A stretch of DNA of 64,000 nucleotides from Herbaspirillum sp. alder98 (GTDB taxonomy: Bacteria; Pseudomonadota; Gammaproteobacteria; Burkholderiales; Burkholderiaceae_D), in the NCBI RefSeq assembly GCF_020179755.1, contig NZ_JAIUCY010000003.1, positions 1-64,000 on the forward strand. The letters are read 5' to 3'. The notes under the pieces are model-generated. The model saw nothing but the letters and a program-made list of their open reading frames with translations, made no database searches and had not been told where the DNA came from. This document shows positions 22,262-23,786 of the stretch, piece by piece. Positions within the stretch are counted from its first letter, which is position 1, and every line of letters begins with the position of its first letter. Made by a program: the position numbers and the translations under genes.

Positions 22262-22659
22262 CAATGTAGAAAATAAGTCTGCTGCCGGATGTGCATTTTA
22301 GCCTATTGCCAAAAGTCGCGATGGCTGGAGCCCAGTTTCGCGGACGCAATGAAAATGATTCTCTTTTCGAGCGAATGACCTGCCACAACTGAGCAGCCAT
22401 CGATGCTGCATTGCGGCAAATTTGATTGTCGAGGTCCAGGTGTCGACAGAAAACTCGACAATTTGCCGCATTAAAGCGACAACCAAGCGACAAGCCTGCT
22501 TAAGTTGCTACCCACACTAGTTGACGCCGGTTCGGCCCAGGGCAATAGGCAATGGCAATTCAATTAATAAAAACAATCAATTTTATATAATCAATTCTTA
22601 AAATCTATAATCCATACCAACAACAGGGGTGTTTCCACTAAAAAAACCATGGAGGTGTT
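22262..22659. other. Divergent promoter region between the dehydrogenase and ZIP genes
   Basis: There is no gene here; the short open frames on the minus strand lack starts and protein character. It holds the Fur-like site and an imperfect inverted repeat (TGCGGCAAATTTgattGTCGAG at 22412-22432 against CTCGACAATTTGCCGCA at 22454-22470). An A/T-rich promoter zone for the ZIP leader at 22555-22615 has two -10-like TATAAT boxes, at 22586 and 22606. Confidence 0.6.
22350..22364. promoter_or_regulatory. Possible Fur box
   Basis: TGAAAATGATTCTCT matches the 7-1-7 Fur consensus TGATAATnATTATCA at 11 of 14 positions. It lies about 90 bases upstream of the Fe-S dehydrogenase gene and 300 bases upstream of the ZIP transporter. 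Iron control of an Fe-S enzyme would make sense. One site found by eye is weak evidence. Confidence 0.35.
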
Positions 22660-22737
22660 ATGGTTCGCATTCTCATTACCGAAATCTTGGAAAATCTAGC
22701 CATCACCCTGGCCGACTATGCGCATGGCAAGGCATAG
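22660..22737 (+). CDS. Leader ORF of the ZIP transporter (25 aa)
   Basis: A mini-gene encodes MVRILITEILENL and 12 more residues (AITLADYAHGKA). GGAGGT lies 4 bases before its ATG, the best ribosome site in the neighbourhood. Its stop codon TAG (22735-22737) forms part of the 3' arm of a stem in the leader RNA, so its translation would disrupt that fold. It ends 47 bases before the ZIP start. It could be a regulatory leader peptide or a small protein; no homologue was checked. Confidence 0.55.
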   Translation: MVRILITEILENLAITLADYAHGKA

Positions 22738-22776
22738 CCCGCAACACCGATGTCCGACTCATCGTTACCGCCAGGG
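22706..22776 (+). ncRNA. Three-way-junction leader RNA covering the ZIP ribosome site
   Basis: Three nested stems can form. P1 is CCCTGGC (22706-22712) / GCCAGGG (22770-22776). P2 is CTATGC (22716-22721) / GCATAG (22732-22737). P3 is CGATG (22748-22752) / CATCG (22760-22764). The 3' strand of P1 overlaps AGGGAG, the ribosome site of the ZIP gene. This is the geometry of a translation-controlling riboswitch or leader. It does not match any riboswitch class that I can name from memory. Confidence 0.45.
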
Positions 22777-22784
22777 AGACTGCC

Positions 22785-23786
22785 ATGATACCGGCACCGT
22801 TGAATAAAAATTTTCCAGCAAAATCAAATACTTCCGACGACGCCACCGCGTTCGATGGTGAATCGCCCCGGCCTGCCATCGGCGCCAAAACCGATCTCGG
22901 CGACAGCCTGACGCTCAATCTCAAGCCACGCCACATCGTCACACTGCTGGTGGCGCTGGTGTTCGTGCTGATCAAGTCCTACGAGACCTTGCACGGCTAC
23001 TTCACGGCCAATCCCCATGTATGGGCGGCGCTGCTGGGTTCATCGGCGGCCGCCGGCCTGACCGCGCTGGGCGCCATGGGCGTGTTTTTCACGCGGCGGC
23101 TGTCGGTCAAGGCGCAAGACGTGATGCTGGGCTATGGCGGCGGCGTGATGCTGGCCGCCAGCGTGTTTTCGTTGATCATCCCCGCCATGGATGCGGCCCA
23201 GGCCATCGGCTATGCCAAGAATGCCTCGGTGTTCCTGGCGGCGACCGGCATCATGCTGGGCGGCCTGTTCGTGCTGGCGCTCAATCACCTGATCCCGCAC
23301 CAGCATTTCCTGGCGATGGCCAGCGACCGCAACAGCGCCGCGCGCACCTCGCGCATCTGGCTGTTCGTGATGGCGGTGACGATCCACAACTTCCCCGAAG
23401 GCCTGGCCATCGGCGTCGGTTTCGGCGGCGAAGACTTCGGCAAGGCGGTGGCGCTGGCCACCGGCATCGGCATACAGGACATTCCAGAGGGGCTGGTGGT
23501 GGCGCTGGCACTGCGTTCGCTGGGCTATTCGGCGGCCAAATCGGCGGCCGCCGGCATCCTGTCGGGACTGGTCGAGCCGATCGGCGGCGTGCTGGGCGCG
23601 CTGGCCACCGGGGTATCGGCGACCGCCCTGCCCTGGGCGCTGGCCGGCGCCGGTGGCGCGATGCTGTTCGTCATCAGCCACGAAGTGATTCCCGAATCGC
23701 ACCGCCAGGGTCACGAATCACAGGCCACGCTGGGCCTGTTGGCGGGCTTCGTGACGATGATGCTGCTGGACGTGATCCTGGGCTAG
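22785..23786 (+). CDS. ZIP-family metal transporter
   Basis: The 333-residue inner-membrane protein has about eight helices and the two ZIP metal-site helices: TIHNFPEGLAIG (TM4) and GIQDIPEGLVVAL (TM5). A His-rich NHLIPHQH loop precedes them, and HEVIPESHRQGHES comes near the end. An N-terminal cytosolic extension of about 50 residues comes before the first helix. GufA/ZupT-like members take up Zn, Fe or Mn, and direction and metal cannot be read from sequence. GGGAG precedes the ATG at 22785 and is embedded in a leader stem. It is convergent with yqaA, overlapping by four bases. Confidence 0.92.
   Translation: MIPAPLNKNFPAKSNTSDDATAFDGESPRPAIGAKTDLGDSLTLNLKPRHIVTLLVALVFVLIKSYETLHGYFTANPHVWAALLGSSAAAGLTALGAMGVFFTRRLSVKAQDVMLGYGGGVMLAASVFSLIIPAMDAAQAIGYAKNASVFLAATGIMLGGLFVLALNHLIPHQHFLAMASDRNSAARTSRIWLFVMAVTIHNFPEGLAIGVGFGGEDFGKAVALATGIGIQDIPEGLVVALALRSLGYSAAKSAAAGILSGLVEPIGGVLGALATGVSATALPWALAGAGGAMLFVISHEVIPESHRQGHESQATLGLLAGFVTMMLLDVILG

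Follow-up and report, generated by a model that had tools for sequence, protein, structure and literature searches.

A conserved 25-residue small protein behind an OxyR-type promoter box, probably the head of a peroxide-type operon joined to a ZIP metal importer in Herbaspirillum

The importer MntH of Escherichia coli belongs to the NRAMP family. According to the portion of PMC8115020 drawn on here, this manganese importer is induced by OxyR in E. coli, and an excerpt of PMC3953959 describes the OxyR site as 'four ATAG elements'. The copper-responsive uORF CruR (DUF2946) is characterised, in the part of PMC9426467 used here, by a CXXC motif, a C-terminal RAPP and Rho-dependent termination. The locus that we describe lies in a stretch of 64,000 nucleotides from Herbaspirillum sp. 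alder98, called the window throughout, where a short ORF (ORF1) stands before the gene for a ZIP-family transporter (Table 1). An earlier, sequence-only reading had taken ORF1 as part of a transporter leader, folded into a three-way junction that hides the ribosome site of the transporter. The ORF of 25 residues is present where that reading had put it, with a good ribosome site and with its stop codon within stem P2, and it is a genuine gene. The supposed transporter leader, however, gives way to a 25-aa protein family absent from Pfam, whose promoter is of the peroxide type and whose second cistron can be exchanged. We thus propose, with a probability of about 0.7, that the locus is an OxyR-type peroxide operon which is headed by a new small-protein family and is joined here to a ZIP importer, the RNA stem P1 contributing at most a coupling between the two cistrons.

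Table 1. Features of the ORF1-ZIP locus (positions in the window; those of stems and ORFs were counted by eye).
Feature	Position	Strand	Basis
OxyR-tetramer-like box ATAG-N7-CAAT-N7-ATAA-N7-CAAT	22545-22581	+	consensus score, PWM, promoter model
sigma-70-like promoter, weak -35 TTTATA, spacer 18, -10 TATAAT	22582-22611	+	motif scan; conserved -10
Shine-Dalgarno GGAGG of ORF1	22651-22655	+	sequence; 4 bases 5' of ATG
ORF1, 25-aa small protein, MVRILITEILENLAITLADYAHGKA, followed by stop	22660-22737	+	sequence, family homologues, pN/pS
P1 5' arm CCCTGGC, inside ORF1	22706-22712	+	sequence; in MFE
P2 CTATGC 22716-22721 / GCATAG 22732-22737, holds ORF1 stop	22716-22737	+	sequence; absent from MFE
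P3 CGATG 22748-22752 / CATCG 22760-22764	22748-22764	+	sequence; in MFE
P1 3' arm GCCAGGG, overlaps ZIP ribosome site AGGGAG (22773-22778)	22770-22776	+	sequence; in MFE
ZIP-family metal transporter, 333 aa	22785-23786	+	Pfam PF02535 70.8 bits, cut-off 35.1
ZIP N-terminal extension, hydrophobic segment (by eye)	22785-23012	+	hhalign homology to separate ORF2

ORF1 is a real gene, conserved at the protein level across three genera, well beyond chance. Its homologues occur in 46 of the 392 family genomes, namely in 29 of the 34 genomes of the same genus (where a peptide-profile search gave E 1.2e-5 or better), in 14 of the genus g68 and in three of the genus g15; this count leaves out three weak family matches (G400, G168 and G160). 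A search of 399 genomes of the order gave no convincing homologue outside the three genera, the matches being three family members and a weak one that sits inside a 294-aa frame. Nineteen of the 20 named loci carrying the peptide are from Herbaspirillum, and the remaining one is from a MAG filed as Duganella. Within each genus ORF1 is under purifying selection, with pN/pS values of 0.229 (27 distinct same-genus sequences), 0.170 (13 sequences of g68) and 0.348 (three of g15). The window peptide has no match in Pfam or NCBIfam, three of its homologues have none in Pfam, and a limited literature search found no publication on the peptide and no match for a uORF in connection with zinc and ZIP. 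Since ORF1 is conserved over much of its length, and also where no ZIP gene is present, we argue that the peptide itself matters; it probably represents a small-protein family without a name that acts as a protein. Its cysteine is not invariant, and the window peptide ends in HGKA. An amphipathic helix, considered as a property of the family, was rejected, because the hydrophobic moment is ordinary in the window (2473 of 5000 shuffles) and stands out only in the g68 sequence (40 of 5000) and in one from g15 (137 of 5000).

One relative, L018 (G027, a 63% complete genome), keeps a ZIP orthologue and the promoter box (34.3 bits with the PWM described below) and has a different ORF of 25 codons, MLKLMRHPRFAIALVFLVQSAQAKA, upstream of the ZIP gene. 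This ORF has the same Lys-Ala-stop end; it may be an ORF1 that was either replaced or strongly diverged.

The gene that starts 47 bases behind the ORF1 stop in the window scores above the gathering threshold of the ZIP family (Table 1) and reaches 114.4 bits, vs a cut-off of 252, with the ZupT equivalog NF003243 of NCBIfam; the match to this model begins at residue 78, and the roughly 77 residues before it form an N-terminal extension outside the model. When the ZIP protein was searched in 100 relatives, the 18 best matches (at least 72% identity, window included) all belonged to the same genus by the grouping of the tool, and 17 of the 18 had the peptide upstream. Viewed from ORF1, the association is looser, with ZIP following directly in 17 of the 46 homologues, all of them among the 29 same-genus ones, such that ORF1 lacks the specificity for one downstream gene that would mark a leader peptide. 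Twelve of the 29 same-genus homologues have no ZIP gene behind them, and in 11 of these 12 a separate ORF2 of 44-55 aa comes next. This ORF2 is related to the ZIP N-terminus, as judged by an hhalign comparison that was built from eight of the 11 ORF2 sequences and five of the 17 ZIP N-termini (probability 98.3, E 1.3e-14). At L101 (G008) no second ORF was found before the convergent VTT-domain gene.

In g68 and g15, no ZIP gene was found behind ORF1 in the 17 stretches examined, and 15 of the 17 genomes have another kind of small ORF there; it was not found at L086 (G258) and is cut short at L100 (G171). A comparison of this second ORF with the ZIP N-terminus gave no homology (probability 0.1), and three examples had no Pfam match above the cut-off. 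Its product is a small, hydrophobic protein of 45-51 aa with the pattern N-x-Y-x-G-x-S-x-L-L ... W (L083-L099 except L086 and L092). By their Pfam matches, the neighbours in the window are a divergent FAD-linked oxidase gene, the convergent VTT-domain gene, a threonine dehydratase gene and queF; the flanking proteins are the same, by eye, at six annotated ORF1 loci (two of g68, three of g15 and that of G008), with one extra gene among them at both g68 loci.

These comparisons speak against a ZIP leader as such, which is how ORF1 had been read, since 29 of the 46 homologues are without ZIP directly behind them and in three no intact second small ORF was found. Hence, with ORF1 kept in bacteria that have no transporter at this place, a switch dedicated to ZIP is improbable. 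In the window ORF1 does precede ZIP, and it is likely that both lie on one transcript.

A regulatory signal that is stronger and better conserved than the RNA fold lies upstream of the segment that the sequence-only reading had singled out. The E. coli OxyR consensus consists of four ATAG/CTAT elements with 7-nt spacers. An AT-rich block upstream of ORF1, common to the three genera, has four such elements at 7-nt spacing (Table 1), and in the window it agrees with the E. coli consensus at 13 of 16 positions, which only one of 2000 dinucleotide shuffles equalled. Among 47 promoter rows from the 46 genomes, 38 rows reach 12 or 13 of 16 and nine stay below 12; in seven of these nine (9-10), all from relatives that carry ZIP, the first element is degenerate, while L100 is without a box (7). 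Of ten spacer lengths tried (3 to 12), 7 was the best over the 47 rows, with a mean of 12.15 vs 8.98-9.83. A first scoring of the box had been circular, as its consensus was made from the same ORF1-promoter sequences. The columns of the -10 element are conserved across 38 aligned promoters, whereas a sigma-70 scan of the window returned two sites vs a shuffle mean of 0.9, so that the promoter prediction is weak when taken alone. A Fur consensus with up to three mismatches was not found in the window. Before the divergent FAD oxidase gene, positions 22348-22367 read AATGAAAATGATTCTCTTTT, which we take to resemble a Fur box, and similar letters were seen by eye in some relatives.

Comparison with known peroxide genes of the same genomes gives a mixed picture, the box being common to some katG and, by consensus score, to most ahpC promoters. 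A PWM from 42 distinct sites was applied to 1.66 million positions of DNA taken from around ZIP, ORF1, katG and ahpC genes, which is thus not a random genome sample; here all matches above 16 bits outside the ORF1/ZIP promoters and their own overlaps lay upstream of katG or ahpC, with 43-44 bits at katG in L118 and L122 and 17.6-31 bits at ahpC promoters. For the genome of the window (G000), the ahpC promoter scores 22.3 bits and the katG promoter is outside the 51 best matches. With the consensus from the ORF1 promoters, the region upstream of ahpC reaches 13 or 14 of 16 in 26 of 30 cases, the site lying at -104 to -111, while in a shuffled control 10 of 1080 regions reach 13 or more anywhere. 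Most of the 24 katG upstream regions scanned have no convincing box; it is clear in G005, G031 and G209. A promoter model was applied genome-wide to eight genomes, seven of them of the same family, scoring being capped at 150 candidates for each. The ORF1 promoter ranked first in all seven, and in two of them the best match outside ORF1 was that of katG: G005 with E 1.7e-5, and G209 with E 0.019 (before a peroxidase gene of 714 aa). Nothing was found with this model in G087, which is of another family, nor was any katG or ahpC promoter found at E<=1 in G000; other weak matches, three in G000 among them, look like chance or are without explanation. One of the weak matches (E 0.08) lies at 2423-2451 of L161 (G209), just before the gene for a TonB-dependent receptor. 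As to the regulator itself, G000 encodes an OxyR candidate that scores 261.7 bits vs 141.3 for the next LysR protein (NCBIfam cut-off 329 bits) and carries GHCFRDQVLEVC, whose cysteines are presumably equivalent to C199/C208.

The three stems of the earlier reading are found in the window at the positions given for them and are able to coexist on paper, and P1 does pair ORF1 codons with the ZIP ribosome site AGGGAG. Nonetheless, the idea of a metal-binding riboswitch on this three-way junction is largely refuted and retains next to no likelihood. The MFE of the 161-base leader contains P1 and P3 and has P2 replaced by another middle stem, and its value of -43.0 is unremarkable (z -0.54), as shuffled sequences average -40.9 and 58 out of 200 equal or surpass it. 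In the 17 ZIP-bearing relatives P1 is partly kept, with 82.4% of cells paired, the first and last pairs holding in eight of 17 and one pair altered on both sides in five. P2 is broken in most of them (79.4% of cells paired, one pair failing in 13 of 17 and another in eight), and P3 is essentially restricted to the window (39.2%, the pair 139-149 holding in one of 17). The three-way junction is therefore not conserved, and variation of this kind in the stems is part of what the earlier reading had itself named as its refutation. The covariation score of the given structure, 0.089, exceeds the shuffled mean of 0.050, with none of 500 shuffles reaching it and six slid versions all lower, though relatedness alone could cause this. 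An Rfam scan of the leader gave no family at gathering score and, when relaxed, two matches with E values of 4 and 6. No described metal-sensing RNA matches the leader, which the earlier reading could not assign to a known riboswitch class either, and the fold that metal binding might switch shows neither an Rfam family nor a conserved, covarying multi-helix structure.

A regulatory leader peptide, that is, ORF1 as a uORF that senses metal or redox state and whose translation or stalling would select between P1 and an alternative hairpin over the ribosome site of ZIP, is an unlikely reading that has more to draw on. None of the 17 ZIP-bearing relatives differs in ORF1 codons 12-16 (AAT CTA GCC ATC ACC), which include at codon 13 the rare CTA, used for 12 of 772 Leu codons in the relatives' ZIP genes; together with the conserved C-terminus YAxCKA, this could serve as a stalling feature. 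Because of this identity, a longer, interrupted helix proposed by RNAalifold, which pairs codons 12-18 with the ZIP start region, looked attractive, and recodings with uniform codon choice paired at least as strongly as the native sequence in only eight of 200 cases for the window (12 of 200 for L002 and 24-179 of 200 for the other 15 relatives). However, when synonymous ORF1 versions followed the codon usage found in the ZIP genes and were paired with the same start regions, 179 to 400 of 400, i.e., 45% (window) to 100% of draws, did at least as well, and the native pairing was in the lowest 5% for none of the 17; the long-range helix was hence rejected as a selected structure. Likewise, synonymous invariance is higher in ORF1 (five of 14 columns) than in ZIP (20 of 173; Fisher p 0.025), yet some 14-column stretches of ZIP reach six invariant codons, and two of the five invariant wobble positions, that of CTA included, are unpaired in the consensus helix. 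The invariance of codons 12-16, a point in favour of the earlier reading, may reflect pairing, codon-level pausing or short divergence. In a second ZIP subgroup (L009-L015 and L017), a post-stop hairpin of the type GGACAGCCATCC...GGATGACTGCC lies between the ORF1 stop and the ZIP start, and in all eight MFE structures it sequesters the ribosome site of ZIP, as a leader mechanism could use in place of P1. Against such a mechanism stand the occurrence of ORF1 without ZIP and, in three genomes, without an intact second ORF, and the absence, by eye, of the CXXC and RAPP motifs of CruR from 21 aligned ORF1 peptides. A combined version, in which ORF1 is a trans-acting protein in the three genera and in addition a nascent-chain or codon-level sensor gating importer translation in the ZIP lineage, with the invariant CTA-containing block and the Cys-Lys C-terminus as sensor candidates, strikes us as quite improbable. 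It is very unlikely, too, that a ZIP operon in decay has left ORF1 and the short ORF2 behind as relics that persist through inertia and not for a function. The homology of the same-genus ORF2 to the ZIP N-terminus would suit such decay, as would G002, in which ORF1 is shortened and a remnant of the ZIP N-terminus is left, and G171, with its diverged ORF1, missing box and incomplete ORF2. On the other hand, purifying selection acts on ORF1 in each genus, most loci retain the box, and in 15 of the 17 genomes of g68 and g15 the second ORF is unrelated to the ZIP N-terminus, with no ZIP gene found in their 17 stretches.

For the peroxide operon that we favour, the following sequence of events is the most likely. 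The box directly abuts the weak -35 element, where RNA polymerase would be brought in by oxidised OxyR in the manner expected for katG and ahpC; the regulator is most likely OxyR, or else another protein with the same box, and peroxide induction would follow from its binding. Transcription would start near position 22618, as placed from the -10 element, and one transcript would carry ORF1 and ZIP. Its first cistron would deliver the 25-aa product, which presumably acts as a protein, and the second differs between lineages, being the ZIP importer, the short ORF resembling the ZIP N-terminus, or the small hydrophobic protein that is unrelated to it. Where ZIP is present, ribosomes on ORF1 could open P1, and at most P1 may in this way couple the translation of ZIP to that of ORF1. 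Import of Mn(II) or Zn(II) under peroxide stress would have its counterpart in the OxyR control of mntH in E. coli. Short, conserved and easily deleted, the small protein lends itself to a direct test of its part in the response to peroxide or metal stress in a laboratory Herbaspirillum strain.

Among the described systems, CruR resembles the present locus in that a small ORF heads a metal-transport operon in a betaproteobacterium, as far as the cited part of PMC9426467 goes; unlike it, ORF1 has neither of the two CruR motifs and is kept without a transporter. The manganese homeostasis protein MntS of E. coli is, by description, also a small protein whose expression accompanies that of a metal importer (excerpt of PMC4361602), and differs from ORF1, which heads the operon and occurs also without an importer. 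A further parallel is offered by the OxyR regulon and mntH of E. coli, in which, by the cited portions of PMC8115020 and PMC3953959, a peroxide-type promoter with four ATAG-like elements likewise stands before a divalent metal importer. Here, the importer is a ZIP protein, a 25-aa cistron comes first and the OxyR site is a predicted one. This suggests that in these betaproteobacteria a ZIP metal importer has come under the control of peroxide, much as mntH has in E. coli.
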